From: a virus
Reading direction: 5' to 3' (one strand)
Virus record (IMG/VR): IMGVR_UViG_3300025102_000287
Span: 1 to 24,175 of that record
Length of the DNA stretch: 24,175 bases
Below, piece after piece: positions 14,679 to 24,175 of this stretch. The notes beneath the pieces are model-generated. The model saw nothing but the letters and a program-made list of their open reading frames with translations, did no database searches and was not told the DNA's origin. A program made the translations under genes and the position numbers. Within the stretch, counting starts at the first letter, position 1. Each line of letters begins with the position of its first letter.

Positions 14679-14841
14679 TCAAAAACCACGCTCTTCTTGT
14701 TGCTTCTTCTTGTGTATCTAAAGTATACGAACTATTAAGTTGTTGAATTAAATCTTCAAGCTGTCTTATTAGCTCTGCTGACTGTTGAGCATCATACTCA
14801 GGTCTAGGATCTGGAAATCTTGTTAATGTTAATTTTGCCAT
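14671..14841 (-). CDS. Conserved-type small virion-cluster protein (56 aa)
   Basis: A complete short reading frame that fills the gap between an oxygenase gene and the 118-aa gene, overlapping both (13 nt and 8 nt). It starts MAKLTLTRFPDPRPEYDAQQ, continues as an amphipathic helix (SAELIRQLEDLIQQLNSSY) and ends EEATRRAWFLNG. The pattern LE.LI..LN.SY followed by E..RR.WFL resembles a small protein repeatedly found in the head-tail region of marine podophages. No obvious Shine-Dalgarno, so translation probably depends on coupling. Function unknown; the recognisable pattern makes it a likely real gene. Confidence 0.7.
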   Translation of the reverse strand: MAKLTLTRFPDPRPEYDAQQSAELIRQLEDLIQQLNSSYTLDTQEEATRRAWFLNG

Positions 14842-15497
14842 TTATCAAAAAAATATACAACATTGTATCGCCAATTTCCATTTGAATATTCCTTATGATT
14901 ATCAATATAACCGCCGTGAGGAATATCCCCATCAAAAATCACACATCTATTGAACTTAGATTGAATTATATGTTTTTTAATATTTTGTTCATCTATGTCT
15001 ATTTTAATGTCTTCATATTCTTGTTCTCCACCAGAGGTTTTATAATTAGGTAATTTTTCATAAAGAGCTGTTCCTCCACTACATGTTTTATCCATATACA
15101 CAAGAATATTTTGTGATGGGTCTTGATGAGGTACAAACTGATATTTTTGTTCAGGAGGATTTATCCACGTAAATATATTTGTAGCAATAGTCTCACAATG
15201 ATGATTATCGAGTTTAAGTAAAGATTTTAAATAGTCAGTAGTTTTGTTTTCATTCTCGAAACCATTTTCTTGTAAAGATATCCAAGTTCTACAATCAAAA
15301 TAATCTTTAAAGTTACGTCCATCTTTTTTAATTTTCCAATTAGGAACCCAAGATTCTTTTAACATGTCATAAATATCATCAGCTCTTTTGTAAAAATTAT
15401 CTATAACAATGTATTTGTAAGGACCAATATATTTTTCTTGTGCTAGTAAGTTGTCGTTAATCTCAAATAGATGATGATGAATATAAGGTGTTGTCAC
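14829..15497 (-). CDS. 2OG-Fe(II) oxygenase-like protein (222 aa)
   Basis: A probable 2-oxoglutarate and Fe(II)-dependent dioxygenase with the facial triad His124-x-Asp126 (FVPHQDPSQN) and His194 (FDGDIPHGGY). A possible 2OG-binding Arg210 lies in NWRYNVVYFF. Between them are the expected strand ILVYMD and the GGT-containing loop. The arrangement resembles DUF6445-type proteins. It starts with GTG overlapping the upstream stop (GTGA). The substrate is unknown; position among tail genes suggests a virion protein, glycan or small metabolite. The fold is inferred from motif spacing. Confidence 0.7.
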   Translation of the reverse strand: MTTPYIHHHLFEINDNLLAQEKYIGPYKYIVIDNFYKRADDIYDMLKESWVPNWKIKKDGRNFKDYFDCRTWISLQENGFENENKTTDYLKSLLKLDNHHCETIATNIFTWINPPEQKYQFVPHQDPSQNILVYMDKTCSGGTALYEKLPNYKTSGGEQEYEDIKIDIDEQNIKKHIIQSKFNRCVIFDGDIPHGGYIDNHKEYSNGNWRYNVVYFFDKWQN

Positions 15498-16027
15498 AGT
15501 ATAGATATATTTGCTGATAAAACTATTCTACTTTTATCTTTGTTTGGCTTTACTTCGTGAGGAACATAGCTTGGAAATAAAACCATTTTGTTTTTAGCAG
15601 GTGATATATTCATTTCAGGACCTTCACAATAAGGGTGCCCAGGTTGATAAAAAGTTGTTGAAGTAGAATCGTCACTACATTGTATATAGTATATCAAGGA
15701 ATGTTCATGTATTTCTCTTCCATGTGCATGAAGTCCATGATGATGACCTTCTGCATAACATTGAATCCATGATCTAGTAATTTTAAAATCATTTTTATTT
15801 AATATTTGTTTTGTATACATTGTAAGATATTGTTTTAAATGATTATAAAAATCATTTAATTGTTCAGATTTATCAAATATATTTTTACAATCATAAAAAG
15901 TGGTAAGCATATCCTCTTTGTCAAAAGAATAATTCTTTATAAAAGAAAGTGTTGAGTCTAGGTTAAACTCGGTTTGTATATCGTAAATTGTTGTTTGAAA
16001 TATATTTCTGTTTACTTGTATTTCCAA
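15494..16027 (-). CDS. 2OG-Fe(II) oxygenase-like protein (177 aa), HxH type
   Basis: Resembles the PF13759 (2OG-FeII_Oxy_5) type. It has W-x-Q-C-Y (87-91), then His100-x-His102 (GLHAHGREIHEHS), a strand LIYYIQ, the P-GHPYCEGPEMNISP loop, and LFPSYVPHEV with His157, followed by SRIVLSANI with Arg167. An HxH pair replaces the usual HxD. A His-rich stretch (HHHGLHAHG) precedes it. The TTG start abuts the previous stop (TAATTG) with GGAAG upstream; no ATG gives a full domain. Substrate unknown. It is next to the P22 gp10-like gene and overlaps the next oxygenase. Confidence 0.72.
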   Translation of the reverse strand: MEIQVNRNIFQTTIYDIQTEFNLDSTLSFIKNYSFDKEDMLTTFYDCKNIFDKSEQLNDFYNHLKQYLTMYTKQILNKNDFKITRSWIQCYAEGHHHGLHAHGREIHEHSLIYYIQCSDDSTSTTFYQPGHPYCEGPEMNISPAKNKMVLFPSYVPHEVKPNKDKSRIVLSANISIL

Positions 16028-17854
16028 TTATCTTCTTCCATCTGGTTGTATGTCAAAACGTTGTGTTCCTAATCTCCAAGCTGTGCCTGTAGTATTTGAA
16101 ACTAGGTTGACTGTAAATTCTCTACCTCTACCTCTTAAACTCACAAAGTCTGTGGTATCTGAGAAGCTTGTAGTTTTAGTTACACTAATACTATTGTTTG
16201 GATAATTCTTAAATTCAAGTTTTGCATTTAATACACCTGCTTGATTTTCAACGTCAGGAATAATTTTAGATACAAAAGCAAATTCGTCGCCTTGAGCTAT
16301 TTGTACTACTCCTGATTTAACAAAAGCAGTAATTGCCTCTCCGTCAGCATCATTTCCTGTTTCGTGTAAAAACATTTGTGTAGCTCCATCTGTAAGACCT
16401 AATATGACCTCGTTGTTTGCCGTGGTCGATGGTAAGTAGTCTGATGCCACAGGGTTATCAAAAACTTCTCTATCAATCCATGTTGTTCTGTCAAGAGTTC
16501 CTGTCCACCAAGTTTGTTCTAAATAATTATAAGCTACTATCGCATTTATCTCGTTAGAGCCTGTTCTAGGATAAAACCACATAATCTCATTGAATTCACC
16601 ATTGTGCCCTGCAAAAGCGTTTTCAGAACCTGTTACATTAATATTGTCAAATACAAACTGTTCCACAGTGCACGGTAATTTTTTAACTGAACCATCAAAT
16701 AAGAAGAAAGAATCTTGTGACATCCAATAGCTTATACCATTAATGTCTATACCTGCGTGCATACCTATTATGCCACAATTCTGACCTAATTGTCTTAAAC
16801 CAAAAGTAAATGGTGGACCAATAAATTGTAGCCCATGAAGAGATGTGTCTGTCCAAACAAGTATCTGACCTCTTGATCTTTCAGCGGCCACGATTCGTGA
16901 TCCGTCGGCAATTCTTAAAGAGCCCGCAGTATTTTCTGCTGTTGGTTGATAAGTATTTATATCTTCTTGACTAGAAAATCTAATCAATAAATCATCTTGG
17001 CTGTTAGGTGTTGCAATAGTTTTCTCAGTACCCATAAACAGTAAGTGTCTGTCTGGAGTTGAAACTAAACTTATTCTTGATGCTGTTGGTGCGCTTGCTA
17101 TAGCTGTTGCTCTTGTTGATACACCTGTTGAAGGCTTCCACTCAAAAGCTCCACCATTTAAAACAGTGGCAACTAAATTTTCACCGAAGTTATCTAAAGA
17201 CCATTGTCTTGCTTCTAGAGTAACATTAGATGTGGATCTTGGCGTGTTCCATGTTGATATACCATAAGTATCTGTACCCCAACCAAAAGCAGGAACTGAA
17301 AATTCAGGACCTAAATTAAGTTGATAGTTCATGTTACCAGTGCCTCCACCTGCAGCGGTAGAACCTGAAGCAGTGCCTGTATGAGTTACCACATAAGCAG
17401 CAGTATTGACGACAGAGGTAACTTCGAACTCCTTATTCATATCTAATCCATCAATGGCTGAAAAAGAATCAAAAGTCACAAAACTACCTTGAACACATCC
17501 ATGACCTGCATCAGTGACCACCACAGAAGTAGTAGCGTTTGTGGTAAAAGGATTTGTTCTTGCTTGAGTTCTTCTAATTGGTGTTATGTCGTAAGCTAAA
17601 CCTTCTTGTATTAAGTAAAGTTTTCTGTCAGTGCCTATAGCGTTCTGTCTTACTCCGTCTAAAGATACCCATGCGTGTTGGTCTCTAGCGGCTCCTACTA
17701 ATGTAGTAGAAATAAACTTTTGCCATCCCTTGATTTTTTGTGCAGATCCTTGGAAAAAGCGAACCATATCACCATCAGTCCACTTACCCTGACCTGTATA
17801 ATCAGTAACTTCTTTGTTAATACCGGGTGCGGGTCTAAAATTTACTAGGGGCAT
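16028..17854 (-). CDS. P22 gp10-like tail hub / DNA-stabilisation protein
   Basis: 608 aa. The N-terminus (MPLVNFRPAPGINKEVTDYT, KWTDGDMVRFFQGSAQKIKGWQ) carries the hallmark of the phage stabilisation-protein family (P22 gp10): D...G.W.D...VRF..G..QKI.GWQ. The rest alternates strands and Trp/Gly turns (RQWSLDNFGENLVATVLNGG, LLFMGTEKT, NEIMWFYPR, AIVAYNYLEQTWWTGTLDR), as expected of a beta-propeller. In P22 this protein plugs the portal and links it to the tail. No Shine-Dalgarno was evident; the gene is spaced 12 nt from the upstream oxygenase. Its place at the start of the head-tail cluster fits. Confidence 0.75.
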   Translation of the reverse strand: MPLVNFRPAPGINKEVTDYTGQGKWTDGDMVRFFQGSAQKIKGWQKFISTTLVGAARDQHAWVSLDGVRQNAIGTDRKLYLIQEGLAYDITPIRRTQARTNPFTTNATTSVVVTDAGHGCVQGSFVTFDSFSAIDGLDMNKEFEVTSVVNTAAYVVTHTGTASGSTAAGGGTGNMNYQLNLGPEFSVPAFGWGTDTYGISTWNTPRSTSNVTLEARQWSLDNFGENLVATVLNGGAFEWKPSTGVSTRATAIASAPTASRISLVSTPDRHLLFMGTEKTIATPNSQDDLLIRFSSQEDINTYQPTAENTAGSLRIADGSRIVAAERSRGQILVWTDTSLHGLQFIGPPFTFGLRQLGQNCGIIGMHAGIDINGISYWMSQDSFFLFDGSVKKLPCTVEQFVFDNINVTGSENAFAGHNGEFNEIMWFYPRTGSNEINAIVAYNYLEQTWWTGTLDRTTWIDREVFDNPVASDYLPSTTANNEVILGLTDGATQMFLHETGNDADGEAITAFVKSGVVQIAQGDEFAFVSKIIPDVENQAGVLNAKLEFKNYPNNSISVTKTTSFSDTTDFVSLRGRGREFTVNLVSNTTGTAWRLGTQRFDIQPDGRR

Positions 17855-17866
17855 TGTGCGAATATA

Positions 17867-18334
17867 CTATAAAATTGGTACAAAATCCATAGCGACTGTT
17901 ATTCTATCGCTTTTTACTTTATCAACACCATGTAAGGCGTCTGATTTGAACAATATAGCAAACCCTTCTTTTTCTTCAACATGTTGTTTTTTGTCATTAA
18001 TCATAAAATATAAACAATTATTGATAGATGGTTTGATTATAATAATAAGAGAATATTCTTCGGGTTGATGATGATGAAGTTTTGTCCAATTGAATTTTTG
18101 ATAGTAGTTAACCCACCAAGATGATTTTTTCCATTTATGACTATTATTTACTTTAGGCAATATATTCTCAATAACAAAATCACCAATATCATGTAAAAAT
18201 TGATAGTTGGGATTAAATCCTGATGTGAGTGATTTAACGTTTTTTAAGTCTTTTTCCCAATTGTCTTTTTCTTGATAAACAAAATTAGAGATATTTACAC
18301 AATCATTATGTGGTATCTCAAAGGTTATAAACAC
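17867..18334 (-). CDS. 2OG-Fe(II) oxygenase-like protein (155 aa), divergent HxH type
   Basis: The shortest of the five. The core looks like PF13759-type enzymes: SSWWVNYYQKFNWTKLHHHQPEE with His87-89, a strand YSLIIIIKP, then FAILFKSDALHGV with His135 and DRITVAMDFVP with Arg144. It has HxH in place of HxD, and the N-terminus is abbreviated. The GTG start follows the glycosyltransferase stop by 4 nt without a clear Shine-Dalgarno. Activity is uncertain because the metal site is divergent; a cupin-like non-enzymatic role is the alternative. Confidence 0.6.
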   Translation of the reverse strand: MFITFEIPHNDCVNISNFVYQEKDNWEKDLKNVKSLTSGFNPNYQFLHDIGDFVIENILPKVNNSHKWKKSSWWVNYYQKFNWTKLHHHQPEEYSLIIIIKPSINNCLYFMINDKKQHVEEKEGFAILFKSDALHGVDKVKSDRITVAMDFVPIL

Positions 18335-18338
18335 GAGA

Positions 18339-19157
18339 TTATTTATTTGCTTTTTGCACGAGAGAACCTACATGGCCTTTAAAGGCTCTATTACCAAAGT
18401 GTGTTAATGGCATAGCTAAGTCTGCCCATATCTCACCACCACACTCTTGCCATAATCTTGAGAAGTAATAATCTTCAGAGAGATATCTAATTTGTGTTTT
18501 GCCATCTCTTGTTTTCGTTTCATAAGGACCTACAGCGAACAGATCATAACAATTGTCTGACTTGTAACTTTGTCCATTTACAATTTGATCTGACTCATAT
18601 TTTCTTTCAGGAAATTTTTTCATCATAGTCCTAAACACCTCTCTCTTAACAAGCATCATTCCTGTAGCAGCTTCTTGTACAGGAAAAAAACCTTGCTCCC
18701 CTTTTAAATTAAGAGGATCATCAAAGTTTACATTATACCCCAAACACCTAGCTTCAATTTCATCTGGTTGTGCATTAGGGTTTTCTTCTAAAATTCCTTT
18801 TATCTTTTCTATATAAAGATGTTTTCTAGGGTAAATTCCACATGCAACATCTTTGTCTGCACATATTAATCTTTCAATATTTTGCCAATTAAATCCTATG
18901 TCAGCATCTATAAATAATAAATGAGTAGCTGCAAAATCAGTTTGATCCATCATCATAGAAACAATGGTATTTCTAGCTCTAGTAATTAAACTTTCATTAC
19001 CCATAGTCTGTATTCTTAAATGTACATTATTAGTTGCAGTCCAAGATTGAAGCTCTAGCAAACCATGCATTGTGCTTTCAGTAAGCATGCCACCGTACAT
19101 TGGCATACCTAAAAATATTTTTAAATTCTTATCTTTTATTTCTTCTGGTTTAATCAT
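18339..19157 (-). CDS. GT-A type glycosyltransferase
   Basis: 272 aa, one-domain glycosyltransferase. The Rossmann-like start (LKIFLGMPMYGGMLTE) is followed by NESLITRARNTIV and the metal/nucleotide-sugar DxD motif in LLFIDADIGFNW (Asp84, Asp86). Downstream are PVQEAATGMMLVKREVF and the acceptor-side segment YLSEDYYFSRLWQECGG. This layout is common in marine phage genomes. The ribosome site AAGGAG with 6-nt spacing is the strongest in the cluster and the ATG overlaps the upstream stop (TAATG). It may transfer sugar to tail protein or host surface glycan; donor and acceptor cannot be read from sequence. Confidence 0.85.
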   Translation of the reverse strand: MIKPEEIKDKNLKIFLGMPMYGGMLTESTMHGLLELQSWTATNNVHLRIQTMGNESLITRARNTIVSMMMDQTDFAATHLLFIDADIGFNWQNIERLICADKDVACGIYPRKHLYIEKIKGILEENPNAQPDEIEARCLGYNVNFDDPLNLKGEQGFFPVQEAATGMMLVKREVFRTMMKKFPERKYESDQIVNGQSYKSDNCYDLFAVGPYETKTRDGKTQIRYLSEDYYFSRLWQECGGEIWADLAMPLTHFGNRAFKGHVGSLVQKANK

Positions 19158-19771
19158 TATTTTCTCCTTGACGATTCACTGTAACCTATGTTTGGTCTAC
19201 TATCATATGCCCATTCAGGATAATGTGGCCCTTCCATATCAATATAATGAAGGAAGCATTGCGCACAATGATCTCCCTGTAGTTTGTTTCTCCAATGCAC
19301 CAACTCTTCCCCCATGTAAATAATACCATCTCCAGGGTTCATAGTTATTTCTGCTTCCATAGAATAACCATTCTCTATATCTTCACCTTTATTTAATTTT
19401 CCAAAATAAATTGGCCAAGGTTCTCCACCAAAATTAATAGTTACTGAATATTCACAAGACTCTCTATCTCTATGAGGCTTTAGAGTTTCACCTCTAGTAT
19501 AAACTCTTGAATAAGAGTATGTAGGACATAAGTTCTTTTTTGTAATTTCAGATATAGTAGGTAATAAAATACCTGACAAAGTTTCTGTGGTAATGTCAGA
19601 ATAACAGTATCTTATATATTTAATTGCACTATCTTCCTTGGAATTAGAAAATTCAAGGTTGGTACATGCTTTGATTATTAAATAATTATAAATAAAACTT
19701 GATATTTTTGGATCTACTAAATTTGGAACGTGTACATAATCATTTTTTTTAAAATATTCTATTCTGTCCAT
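19157..19771 (-). CDS. 2OG-Fe(II) oxygenase (204 aa), HRD type
   Basis: A 2OG-Fe(II) enzyme with YSRVYTRGETLKPHRDRESCEY (His100, Asp102), a strand SVTINFGGEPWPIYF, and the distal metal ligand in YMGEELVHWRN (His159). The usual Arg ten or so residues downstream is not obvious; QCFLHYID fills that position, so 2OG binding may use another residue. It starts at an ATG preceded by GGTG and ends by TAATG overlap with the glycosyltransferase, which implies co-translation. The pattern is a common marine-phage version of the family. Possible substrate: protein, lipid or glycan; unknown. Confidence 0.78.
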   Translation of the reverse strand: MDRIEYFKKNDYVHVPNLVDPKISSFIYNYLIIKACTNLEFSNSKEDSAIKYIRYCYSDITTETLSGILLPTISEITKKNLCPTYSYSRVYTRGETLKPHRDRESCEYSVTINFGGEPWPIYFGKLNKGEDIENGYSMEAEITMNPGDGIIYMGEELVHWRNKLQGDHCAQCFLHYIDMEGPHYPEWAYDSRPNIGYSESSRRK

Positions 19772-20337
19772 ATCACCAAAACTTTCCTAGTCCCTTTTGT
19801 TAAAGGTGTTACGCTATGAGGAAACATAAAATTAGAGGGAAAACAAACAACATCTCCACGATCTATTTTGATACCCTTCTGTGAATTTTGAACGAATAAC
19901 TCTCCTCCTTCATATTCCTTAGGATCGTTTAATCCAATTAATAAGGTAAGTGCCCTTGGAGCATCTTTAAAATAATCAGTGTGATAATCATAATGACCAC
20001 CGTTTTTGCCTTCGTAATATAAAAATTCGAAATAGTTATTGTTAGAAAAATACCATGATGAAATCTTTTCTCGATATTCATTTTCAATAGTGCTTGTAAA
20101 TCTTTTTAAATCATTGAATATAATTCTTCTACTTATTGAATTACCAATATCTTTTTCATATAGACTAGTGCTTTTTACTGTTCTAATTTTTTCGTTAAGC
20201 CCAGATGCTGTGGAAGCTTTTTCCCAATCATCAACGTTCCTGTATATCTCTTCATTAATTAAATTTACTAAAGATGGTTTCATAGCATCTTTAATAATCA
20301 GAGAATACTGAAGAACTTCTTTTTTGAGGTTAAGCAC
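19759..20337 (-). CDS. Prolyl-4-hydroxylase-like 2OG-Fe(II) oxygenase (192 aa)
   Basis: The most canonical of the set, P4H-like. It has GGHYDYHTD with His119 and Asp121, then RALTLLIGLNDPKEYEGGELFV, the Gly-Asp turn GDVVCFPSNFMFPHSV with distal His174, and TKGTRKVLVIW with Arg184 or Lys185 for 2OG. An unrecognised helical N-terminal segment covers residues 1-100. The GTG start overlaps the previous stop by 8 nt; an internal ATG at codon 19 would also preserve the domain. It overlaps the next oxygenase by 13 nt. A hydroxylase of protein side chains is the family expectation; the target is not shown. Confidence 0.85.
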   Translation of the reverse strand: MLNLKKEVLQYSLIIKDAMKPSLVNLINEEIYRNVDDWEKASTASGLNEKIRTVKSTSLYEKDIGNSISRRIIFNDLKRFTSTIENEYREKISSWYFSNNNYFEFLYYEGKNGGHYDYHTDYFKDAPRALTLLIGLNDPKEYEGGELFVQNSQKGIKIDRGDVVCFPSNFMFPHSVTPLTKGTRKVLVIWTE

Positions 20338-21252: not shown

Positions 21253-22296
21253 TTAATCCTTAGAACATGCAATGACATTTGCAAATTTAATATCCATGTC
21301 TGGAACTGTCAAATCTGTCGTTGCCGAAACACTACCTGATAAAGATACACTTCCTGAAATTGGGTGACTATGCGTTCCGCCTCCACCCGTGGAACCAGTG
21401 CTTCCGCCACCTCCTGATGGTCGAGGTGGATCTCCACCTGGTTGACCACTACGTCCACTCATGTTATTTGGGTGACTGTGAGAAGGTATCGTTGGTGTGG
21501 AAAGAGTTGTATCTCCGACAGCTAAAGTTCCTGTTGAAGCACCTGCACTTGAGGCATCATCAAAAGTAATAGGGCCAGAGGCAGTTGATTTTGTACCTGT
21601 AAACACTGTAGCAAAGGCATCGGAACCTGCTAATCCACCACCAGAACCTGTAACAACTTGAAGTGTTGTTGTATTTATCGTAGCAGAAGTATTTTGTGTC
21701 CAACCACTAGGAGCAGATCCTTGAAAAAATAAAGCAGTAGAACCTGAGGGTATGCTTGATACTCCTGTTAAAGCAGAGCCATCTCCAGAATATGCAGTAG
21801 CATTAATTGTACCGTTTGCAGCAGTCATTACTGTACTGTCAACAGTCAAAGAATTTAGAATACTTAAATCACCTAATGAGTTTGCAAACAAATCAATCAT
21901 ATCATTGCTAGCATTATTATAGGCAATGGTGTGAGATCCTTGTGTAATAACTAACGCATTAGCTGTATGGCCTGTGGCACAAACACTTAAAGTTTGAGAT
22001 CCTGTAGTGTTATTAAAAAAAATATAGTTTGATTCTACCGCAGGAATAAAAACTTTTATGTCACCTGTTAAGGCTCCTGTGAACTCTATAACTTTATTAG
22101 ACGCTTCTGCGGTGGGACTTGCATCGGCTGTTGTAAGTGTAACATCAGCAGAACCTGCTACGGACTTTGATAAATATCCTGCTGTAAAGGCATCAACCAC
22201 TTCAAGATTATTATTTGTGTTTGTTCCCCAAGTTCCTGAGTTAGCTCCTGTTTGTTGAAGTTCTAATTTATATCTATCTGAATAAGTGCTTGTCAT
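21253..22296 (-). CDS. Tail-fibre/collar paralogue 1 (347 aa)
   Basis: Third in transcription order of three tandem paralogues. The layout is an N-terminal segment starting STYSDRYKLELQQTGANSG, a conserved middle (TGALTGDIKVFIPAVESNYI, FFNNTTGSQTL), then a collar-like region from about residue 182 (PSGSTALFFQGSAPSGWTQN, LQVVTG, GSDAF). The C-terminus has TLSTPTIPSHSHP (His273, His275), a 31-residue Gly/Pro/Ser loop and THSHP (His309, His311), ending FANVIACSKD. HxH pairs bind iron in several phage tail tips, for example T4 gp37. It likely functions as a receptor-binding fibre or needle. Its AAGGA Shine-Dalgarno lies inside the last codons of the paralogue upstream. Confidence 0.8.
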   Translation of the reverse strand: MTSTYSDRYKLELQQTGANSGTWGTNTNNNLEVVDAFTAGYLSKSVAGSADVTLTTADASPTAEASNKVIEFTGALTGDIKVFIPAVESNYIFFNNTTGSQTLSVCATGHTANALVITQGSHTIAYNNASNDMIDLFANSLGDLSILNSLTVDSTVMTAANGTINATAYSGDGSALTGVSSIPSGSTALFFQGSAPSGWTQNTSATINTTTLQVVTGSGGGLAGSDAFATVFTGTKSTASGPITFDDASSAGASTGTLAVGDTTLSTPTIPSHSHPNNMSGRSGQPGGDPPRPSGGGGSTGSTGGGGTHSHPISGSVSLSGSVSATTDLTVPDMDIKFANVIACSKD

Positions 22297-22298
22297 TT

Positions 22299-23339
22299 TT
22301 AATCCTTTGTCGCTATTATACTATCTGCAAATTTTAAATTCATCGCAGGAACACTCGCAGCCACGGTAGAAGAAAGACTACCACTTAGAGATATACCTGA
22401 CAAGGTGTGACTGTGAGAGCCACCACCACCTGCACCACCTGTGCTTGATCCACTTGAACCTGTTGCTATTGGAGAACCACGACCTCTTGAGGGTTGTGGA
22501 CCACCTGCACTAGTTCTAGGATGACTATGAGAGGGTATTTGAGGGGTACTCAAAGTTGTTGCTCCTGCAGTTAAACTACTAGTATCTACTGTTAAACTAC
22601 CTGTGCTAATTGGAACACTCGCCTTTGAAGCTGACTTTGATCCTGTAAACACTGTGCTAAAAGTATCAGAACCACCTGTGCCACCACCTGTGCCATTAAC
22701 TACTTGTAAACAACATTCTGTTAAAGTAGCAGAGGTATCTGTCGTAAAACCTGTCGGAGCTGAAGTTTGTACAAAAGTTGCTTTGGTTCCTGCGGGAAAC
22801 TCTTGCACTCCAGTCAAACCTCCACCATCTCCTTTTAAGGTTGTTGCTGAAACTGTGCCATTTGCAAAAAGATTAATGTTATTTCCAATCGCAATCTTAC
22901 CTTTAGCTGAAACGTTACCGAAAGAATTAGCAAATAAATCTACCATTCTATTACCCTTACAATACATAATCGTATGGGCACCTTGCACTATTGCTACTCC
23001 ATTAGCTGTATGTCCTGTAGGAGCAACAGTCAAAGTTTGTGATCCCGTTGTGTTGTTAAAGAAAATATAATTAGACTCAACGGCAGGCACAAAAACTTTA
23101 ATATCGCCTGTTAATGCTCCTGTAAATTCAATTACTTTGTTAGATGCTTCAGCATTAGGATCTGAGTTGTTTGTGCTTAAAGTTATATCTGCTGATCCTG
23201 CCACACTTTTAGCTAAAAAACCTGCATTAAAAGCATCAATAACTTTTAAATTTGTATTTGTATTATCTCCCCATGTGCTTGCATTAGCACCTGTTGCCAT
23301 CAATTCTAATTTTAATCTATCTGAATAAGTTGAGGCCAT
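22299..23339 (-). CDS. Tail-fibre/collar paralogue 2 (346 aa)
   Basis: Same layout as the flanking paralogue: STYSDRLKLELMATGANAST, TGALTGDIKVFVPAVESNYI, FFNNTTGSQTL, then PAGTKATFVQTSAPTGFTTD and GGSDTFSTVFTG. His271 and His273 (IPSHSHP) and His309 and His311 (SHSHT) bracket a loop quite different in order (RTSAGGPQPSRGRGSP then ATGSSGSSTGGAGGGG). It ends LKFADSIIATKD. The last codons AAG-GAT-TAA supply AAGGA, 6 nt before the next ATG. Synonymous positions differ a lot from its neighbour, so the duplication is not recent. Function as a tail tip or fibre is inferred. Confidence 0.8.
   Translation of the reverse strand: MASTYSDRLKLELMATGANASTWGDNTNTNLKVIDAFNAGFLAKSVAGSADITLSTNNSDPNAEASNKVIEFTGALTGDIKVFVPAVESNYIFFNNTTGSQTLTVAPTGHTANGVAIVQGAHTIMYCKGNRMVDLFANSFGNVSAKGKIAIGNNINLFANGTVSATTLKGDGGGLTGVQEFPAGTKATFVQTSAPTGFTTDTSATLTECCLQVVNGTGGGTGGSDTFSTVFTGSKSASKASVPISTGSLTVDTSSLTAGATTLSTPQIPSHSHPRTSAGGPQPSRGRGSPIATGSSGSSTGGAGGGGSHSHTLSGISLSGSLSSTVAASVPAMNLKFADSIIATKD
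22303..22307 (-). promoter_or_regulatory. Shine-Dalgarno embedded in last codons of paralogue 2
   Basis: AAGGA formed by the Lys-Asp codons before the stop; 6 nt from the ATG of paralogue 1. Confidence 0.6.
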
Positions 23340-23340
23340 A

Positions 23341-24175
23341 TTAATCCTTACTACAAACTATTACGTTTGCCCTTTTTATATCCATACCTGGAACAGAAAG
23401 AGCAATTGAAGGTGCTCCCATTGTTCCTGTTAAATTTCCTGATCCACTGACAGGGTGAGTGTGAGAGCCACCACCTCCTGTAGATCCAGTTGAACCACCT
23501 GGTCCAATTCTTGACTGAGGACCACTATCAACATTAGGACCACCACTTATTGATTGAGAAGGGTGAGAGTGAGATGGAATTTCAGGTGTTGACAAAGTCA
23601 CATCACTTGCAGATCCCCCTTCGATTGTTAAAGGAGATATATCAACTGTACCCGCTCCTGAGGTAGCTTTTGATCCTGAAAAAACTGAATTAAATAAATC
23701 TGAACCACCTGTTCCTGCAGTACCAGAAGTTATAACTCTTAGTGTTGCATTGGTTAAAGCCGCTGCAGTATTTTGAGTCCAACCTGTTGGTGCGGACGCT
23801 TGTAAAAAAACCATTTGTGTATCTGCGGGTAAGGTGCTTACTCCTGTTAGATCTCCACCTGCACCAGTAAATGAAGAGGCAACAACCTGTCCATTTGATT
23901 TTACTTGTACAGATCCACCAACCGCACCCGCACCTTTAAAACTGACAGTGCCTAATGAAGATGCAAACAAGTCAACAACTTTGTTACTTGCATTGTTGTA
24001 AGCAATAGTGTGCGCTCCTTGTTGTATTGTAATTGAGTTTGCAGTATGGCCTGTTGGCGCTACCTTTAAAGTATGTGAGCCAGAGGTATTGTTAAAAAAT
24101 ATATAATTATTTTCTACAGCGGGAATGAATACAATAATATCTCCTGTTAAAGCACCAGTAAATTCTATAACTTTA
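23341..24175 (-). CDS. Tail-fibre/collar paralogue 3 (5' end beyond window)
   Basis: First of the three in transcription order. The frame is open through the right edge, and the visible protein starts inside the NKVIEFTGALTGDI region conserved in the other two; the TTG at 23970 is internal. The visible order is VFIPAVENNYIFFNNTSGSHTLKVAP in two stretches, then ADTQMVFLQASAPTGWTQNT, GGSDLFNSVFSGSK, IPSHSHP, a Gly/Ser/Pro loop, SHTHP, and RANVIVCSKD. Its last codons contain the Shine-Dalgarno for paralogue 2 (5-nt spacing). At least 278 residues are present; the rest lies outside. Confidence 0.8.
   Translation of the reverse strand, partial: KVIEFTGALTGDIIVFIPAVENNYIFFNNTSGSHTLKVAPTGHTANSITIQQGAHTIAYNNASNKVVDLFASSLGTVSFKGAGAVGGSVQVKSNGQVVASSFTGAGGDLTGVSTLPADTQMVFLQASAPTGWTQNTAAALTNATLRVITSGTAGTGGSDLFNSVFSGSKATSGAGTVDISPLTIEGGSASDVTLSTPEIPSHSHPSQSISGGPNVDSGPQSRIGPGGSTGSTGGGGSHTHPVSGSGNLTGTMGAPSIALSVPGMDIKRANVIVCSKD
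23345..23349 (-). promoter_or_regulatory. Shine-Dalgarno embedded in last codons of paralogue 3
   Basis: AAGGA formed by the Lys-Asp codons before the stop; 5 nt from the ATG of paralogue 2. Confidence 0.6.

Follow-up and report, generated by a model that had tools for sequence, protein, structure and literature searches.

The window analysed here is the whole of a 24,175-base virus record from IMG/VR (IMGVR_UViG_3300025102_000287), and its minus strand, which holds all of the window's genes described below, appears to carry an island of late virion genes interspersed with many inserted genes for 2-oxoglutarate (2OG)-Fe(II) oxygenases. Between positions 14829 and 20337 lie six predicted enzyme genes, five for oxygenases (OX1 to OX5) and one for a glycosyltransferase-like protein (GT) with a DxD motif, all at the positions given in a preliminary description made from the sequence alone. 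Comparison of this island with those of other marine phages places OX1 and OX2 as standing members of a fibre module, consisting of the HxH-tipped fibre, two proteins named P155 and P156, OX1 and OX2. Additionally, the comparison corrects the 'ferrochelatase' label under which relatives of OX2 have been deposited.

The P22 gp10-like hub or stabilisation protein (608 amino acids; 16028..17854; phrog_3287, 5.1e-86; relatives annotated 'stabilization protein') has relatives encoded in 459 IMG/VR stretches, and shares 46% identity with the hub of the freshwater phage DSL-LC04 and 39% with the hubs of HTVC023P and HTVC027P, pelagiphages in culture, which the window also resembles in gene order except for the position of GT. 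Judged by its sequence, the window phage appears to be a relative of the HTVC023P-type pelagiphages and kin to phages infecting SAR11. The island follows the skeleton fibre(s) - (P155 - P156) - OX1 - OX2 - slot - GT - slot - hub - slot - P118 - slot - P83. The hub interrupts the oxygenase set between OX3 and OX4, as had been described and as gene calls and profile matches agree, and the suggested translational coupling at several junctions is consistent with gene ends that overlap (OX5/OX4 by 4 nt, GT/OX2 by 1 nt, OX2/OX1 by 13 nt and OX1/P156 by 8 nt) or abut (OX4/hub, 0 nt).

Oxygenase families and the ferrochelatase label

Fold and motif identify OX1 to OX5 as 2OG-Fe(II) oxygenase family proteins and predicted enzymes, and the earlier family calls were right according to Pfam and PHROG profiles, which back OX1, OX4 and OX5 directly and OX2 and OX3 by way of PHROG families, and to structural models of OX2 and OX3, both of which show the 2OG fold. 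The double-stranded beta-helix is seen in these two models, is indicated by PF13640 and PF13759 for OX1 and OX4, and is suggested for OX5 by sequence alone (DUF6445). The HxD/E...H metal triad is present in OX1 (HTD), OX2 (HRD) and OX5 (HQD); in its place OX3 and OX4 have HxH...H, a putative iron site shared with the structures 3bvc and 2rg4. The general pattern H-x-[DEH]...H...[RK] is not a chance feature, since it is carried by 397/405 homologues versus 68/393 other open reading frames (ORFs).

OX1 (192 amino acids; 19759..20337) is a PiuC/PKHD/P4H-like protein with the motif HTD...H...R (PF13640, 2.2e-16; phrog_61, 6.3e-29; PiuC in PDB, 1.6e-7). OX2 (204 amino acids; 19157..19771; HRD...H; phrog_2954, 1.6e-44) had no match by sequence in PDB. 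An alignment of 38 homologues leaves H100, D102 and H159 invariant, and the PDB matches of its AlphaFold2 model (predicted local distance difference test, pLDDT, 86) include EvdO1, SnoN, proline hydroxylase H11 and EctD. OX1 and OX2 are fused in one ORF in the loci L029, L059 and L078 and in the phages S-SCSM1 (L247:7704-9065) and S-SCSM2R (L089:9980-11263).

The published reading of OX2 homologues is a different one. PHROG 2954 and the deposited homologues of HTVC023P (gp67), HTVC008M, HTVC033P and syn9 bear the label 'ferrochelatase', a reading found in PMC3037559 and also in the available text of PMC9599517, where ferrochelatases of the HTVC023P-type lineage are said always to adjoin a 2OG oxygenase; OX2 would then be a ferrochelatase partner of the oxygenases. 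The true ferrochelatase family PF00762 was found in 0/19 phage records, HTVC023P and syn9 included, and in 8/14 control genomes, while among the top 50 fold matches to the OX2 model nearly all were non-haem iron/2OG enzymes and none was a ferrochelatase. Together with the invariant HxD...H, these results reduce the chance of a ferrochelatase to practically nil and lead us to reject it. By modelled fold and metal motif OX2 is a 2OG oxygenase that has been mislabelled, at least one of the published ferrochelatases (HTVC023P gp67) belongs to its family, and once the label is corrected, a published case for a partnership with haem or iron falls away. No published correction was found in literature searches of partial coverage. 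Similar labels are spread through phage annotations, as PHROGs 274, 1644, 2954 and 3531 carry 'DNA endonuclease V', 'minor coat protein' and 'ferrochelatase' on families matching 2OG-type proteins; we also rejected 'DNA endonuclease V' and 'minor coat protein' (phrog_1644, OX5), for which the Pfam scan yielded 2OG or DUF6445 matches only, or none.

OX3 (155 amino acids; 17867..18334; phrog_81, 2.3e-13; PF13759, 0.0041, below cut-off) and OX4 (177 amino acids; 15494..16027; PF13759, 6.4e-9; PF13640, 2.5e-6; TIGR02466 below cut-off) are of the HxH type. The OX3 model (pLDDT 95.7) matches 3bvc and, after it, peptidyl hydroxylases best, namely Pseudomonas putida P4H, PHD2 and the viral collagen hydroxylase vCPH, and H87, H89 and H135 (OX3 numbering) are invariant in 64 aligned proteins from groups that had been picked as HxH-type. 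OX5 (222 amino acids; 14829..15497; HQD...H; PF20043/DUF6445, 8.4e-6; phrog_1644, 6.6e-23) is a rare DUF6445-type member present in 9/85 of the first loci. Five genes are thus present as described, in four sub-types rather than five, because OX3 and OX4, although only 17% identical, fall in one broad PF13759-like group.

Across the window's clade, the 62 islands that are complete carry 3 to 11 oxygenases with a median of 5, so that the 'dense cassette' of the preliminary description is ordinary for its lineage. OX1 is present in 61/62 and OX2 in 58/62 of these islands, and the PF13640 matches in 15 related records all lie inside island loci. The 412 oxygenase ORFs of the first locus set form 54 groups at 40% identity. 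Recent tandem duplication can be ruled out as the source of the set, because pairs within one locus share a median identity of 15% and a maximum of 40%.

The fibre module and its co-variation

Three fibre paralogues precede the oxygenases. The first (21253..22296; phrog_31104, 1.8e-24; phrog_12796 tail fiber, 2.2e-4) has a collar-type tip with two HxH motifs flanking a Pro/Gly/Asn-rich loop; beyond it, farther from the oxygenases, lie the second (22299..23339; phrog_31104, 5.5e-21) and a third, similar one whose ORF is cut at the window end (23341..24175). Across the clade the fibres are alike at the N-terminus and vary at the tip. Between fibre and OX1 lie P155 (20766..21233), a four-cysteine fibre accessory protein that adjoins fibre genes in unrelated phages too, and P156 (20330..20800), a putative fibre-assembly chaperone that takes the position of the PF16778 chaperones of P-SSM2 and CRP-361 and is only weakly similar to them in sequence.

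Co-variation was assessed by Mantel tests on 57 dereplicated islands, with gene-by-gene comparisons on the 33 islands that have P155. The oxygenase repertoire upstream of GT tracks the fibre tip (r 0.63), also when hub, GT, fibre N-terminus and P83 are controlled (partial r 0.62, p 0.001) and inside both fibre classes (r 0.66 and 0.36). Fibre middle and tip, P155, P156, OX1 and OX2 are mutually correlated at r 0.61-0.86, whereas OX1 and OX2 follow the fibre N-terminus (r 0.29-0.33) and GT (r 0.14-0.20) far less, a pattern that would fit a cassette exchanged as a unit, be it through shared function or through linkage. OX1 still tracks the tip after controlling for P155, P156 and hub (r 0.28, p 0.001).

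The preliminary description had also proposed a stepwise hydroxylation followed by glycosylation. GT (272 amino acids; 18339..19157; DAD motif; phrog_1574, 4.5e-37; phrog_34859 'glycosyltransferase', 6.4e-5) keeps its DxD motif in 62/62 relatives and has its named family from PHROGs only, with no match in Pfam, NCBIfam or PDB sequences. As a core gene it hardly varies: identity across the clade is about 80% irrespective of which oxygenases are present, and co-variation with the oxygenase repertoire is absent (r 0.06, p 0.155; 57 dereplicated islands). In HTVC023P and HTVC027P it sits elsewhere. The stepwise scheme is therefore not supported, and GT was set aside as the partner of the oxygenases.

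The same data bear on a second explanation, in which the targets of the oxygenases are surface glycans, made by host or phage, or other molecules of the host, and the island is no more than a hot spot for auxiliary genes that happens to adjoin the fibres and is swapped with them. In relatives, the slots also hold a Trp halogenase (PF04820, 3e-102; L040:13105-14592), a carbamoyltransferase (L072:6662-8155), a sulfotransferase (L053:3469-4257), methyltransferases, JmjC/cupin proteins, epimerases, extra glycosyltransferases and DUF6065. The last of these (L028:2911-3660; homologues in 54 loci) occurs in 26/62 islands, mostly between OX2 and GT. The sulfotransferase, carbamoyltransferase, methyltransferases, epimerases and extra glycosyltransferases are what a glycan-directed set might contain, the OX1/OX2 genes of S-SCSM2R adjoin several glycosyltransferases and an amidinotransferase, and the OX genes are exchanged together with the tip in one linked block. 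Set against this are the lack of co-variation between GT and oxygenases, the mainly peptidyl hydroxylase fold neighbours of OX3, and the position of OX1 after P155 and fibre in unrelated phages, and we consider a role in glycan modification unlikely, though well worth keeping in mind.

A third explanation concerns iron. Of the 62 islands, P155 occurs in every one with a two-HxH fibre tip (35/35) and in none of the others (0/27), its residues C10, C17, C22 and C44 are invariant in 225 homologues, and it is possibly a metal-site accessory of the fibre; it stands beside HxH fibres in other phages too, with or without oxygenases. The HxH motifs of the tip resemble the iron-binding HxH of T4 gp37, and OX1 resembles PiuC, a protein named for and associated with iron uptake. 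OX1 and P155 could then load iron into the HxH sites of the tip, as in the iron-bearing T4 gp37 tips, so that the function would be iron handling and not hydroxylation. Host iron transporter genes rise on infection with HTVC027P (PMC12753301), whose authors cite the Ferrojan Horse idea. This explanation appears improbable, as it leaves OX2 to OX5 unexplained, and as 29 loci have P155 and HxH tips without a nearby oxygenase, which shows that the enzyme is not required for such tips.

Loop composition was less informative. Within the window's clade the tip loop between the two HxH motifs contains 11% Pro versus 2.7% elsewhere in the fibre, in line with the Pro-rich loops described before, and this part of the claim stood. 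Across other phages, the contrast between loops with and without a nearby oxygenase was not convincing for Pro (one-sided p 0.036; two-sided p 0.137 after stricter dereplication) or for any other residue. Neither Pro nor another residue stands out as a common target across phages.

Recurrence in unrelated marine phages

P155 homologues adjoin fibre genes in T4-like cyanophages and in the autographivirus CRP-361. The order in P-SSM2 is a collagen-repeat fibre (PF01391, 1.6e-19), P155, a tail assembly chaperone (PF16778) and an OX1 homologue, and that in S-SCSM1 is fibres, P155, a 445-amino-acid protein and the OX2/OX1 fusion, with 2OG genes on both sides. The S-SCSM1 fibre is recorded as a virion protein, and seven annotated 2OG genes surround the module. 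CRP-361 has fibre, P155 and chaperone, but its locus lacks an oxygenase, and OX2 is absent from the record as a whole.

To survey this arrangement, two IMG/VR scans were run with distant P155 queries, one from a Roseobacter phage and one from a Prochlorococcus phage, without selection for oxygenases; a single locus, L089, was added through OX2. An oxygenase lies at most 3.5 kb downstream of P155 in 93/122 assessable loci (40 with and 18 without after dereplication), and OX1 is the first oxygenase in 76 of these 93, while an oxygenase upstream of the fibre was found in 13/86 loci. Because of the origin of the queries, the recurrence is independent of the window's own clade.

The genomic setting also bears on the proposal that the enzymes act in the hypermodification or repair of DNA or control the level of 2-oxoglutarate in the cell, along lines suggested for cyanophages. 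OX1 shows a weak resemblance to PF12851 (Tet_JBP) of 12.8 bits (E 0.071), short of the cut-off of 34.9 bits, and the C5-methylase family PF00145 is present in 5/15 related records (those behind L002, L015, L019, L025 and L134). One PF00145 match in the L134 record carries an in-frame stop. Roles in 2OG/NtcA signalling and DNA repair have been proposed in PMC3037559. Conversely, Tet_JBP was found in 0/15 records, in a search that matched no control either, the genes sit among virion genes and away from replication genes, and a single enzyme would be enough to consume 2OG, yet dozens of diverged families exist. We regard this proposal as very unlikely.

Interpretation and comparison with known systems

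The best explanation, to which we give a little less than even confidence, is post-translational finishing of the fibre by OX1 and OX2, for which we infer both the enzyme activity and the fibre as substrate. The most likely reaction would be hydroxylation by OX1 and OX2 of side chains in the shaft or the tip loops of freshly synthesised fibre, either ahead of assembly or while it proceeds; collagen-type prolyl hydroxylases, for comparison, work on chains that have not yet folded. For the remaining oxygenases and the occasional tailoring enzymes, found in set positions around GT, hub and P118, the probable targets would be that protein or others exposed on the virion, and their modifications could vary what host cells and receptors see.

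Several observations weigh against fibre finishing. The repertoire downstream of GT, in the OX3-OX5 slots, tracks its neighbour P118 (r 0.40) and hardly the tip (r 0.15), and the proposed link between oxygenases and fibre, which for OX1 and OX2 is supported by both the tip correlation and the recurring gene order, is accordingly weaker for these slots. P118 (14322..14678) is a conserved structural-like protein and is followed by P83 (14031..14282), a conserved marker of the island end in the island comparison. Furthermore, the two proteins that separate tip from OX1, P155 and P156, show co-variation just as strong as that of the tip, and co-variation of neighbours also fits the exchange of one linked DNA block. 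Loop composition did not single out a target residue (best uncorrected p 0.009, with none surviving correction for 20 tests), and OX1 is close to the iron-uptake-associated PiuC. The tip-bearing proteins of S-SCSM2R are 38 kb away from OX1/OX2, no fibre was identified beside the oxygenase cluster of syn9 or HTVC008M, and no study of virion modifications by mass spectrometry came to light.

A broader proposal is that marine phages run a fibre-finishing system in which a core of OX1-OX2 goes with HxH-tipped fibres and is complemented by interchangeable oxygenases, halogenases and transferases, such that receptor-binding proteins would be chemically varied beyond the genetic code; we offer this as a speculative and rather doubtful extension. 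If fibres are indeed hydroxylated or tailored, host range would not be readable from fibre sequence alone, and many marine-phage oxygenases now classed as 'auxiliary metabolic' would be enzymes of virion maturation.

Known systems resemble the island in different respects. The PF13759-like proteins 3bvc and 2rg4 from structural genomics are the best sequence matches of OX3 and OX4, and 3bvc is also the best fold match; they share the HxH...H...R pattern and differ in being bacterial proteins without assigned function. The fold of OX3 is like that of vCPH of PBCV-1 (PDB 5c5t) and of PHD/P4H enzymes, and the reaction type is likely alike, but these enzymes have HxD/E where OX3 and OX4 have HxH, and the window fibre has no collagen repeat. 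Phage 2OG proteins have also been found to resemble EGLN3 (PMC12774648). The flavin halogenase VirX1 of cyanophage Syn10 (PMC8407142) has counterparts among halogenase genes in the L040 island and beside the syn9 2OG cluster, and none in the window.

The 2OG-rich T4-like cyanophages, namely S-SCSM1 with 24 such genes (PMC9602691), syn9 and P-SSM2, share with the window many diverged 2OG genes, including OX1 and often OX2 homologues, some of them beside fibres and in some cases with halogenases nearby. Unlike the window phage they are myoviruses, and the roles proposed for their many 2OG genes lie in host metabolism, nitrogen and DNA repair (PMC3037559, PMC9602691). In literature searches of partial coverage, no fibre - P155 - OX1 - OX2 module was found to have been published. 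Another close system is that of the HTVC023P-type pelagiphages, which appear to belong to the same lineage and have several non-orthologous 2OG genes close together with a 'ferrochelatase' beside one of them. In its available text, PMC9599517 reads such genes as ferrochelatases and draws no link to fibres, whereas here OX2 is assigned to the 2OG oxygenases by modelled fold and motif, and OX1-OX2 to the fibre module. Going by that text, the clustering of 2OG genes in these phages was already known, while the correction of OX2 and the fibre module are new here.

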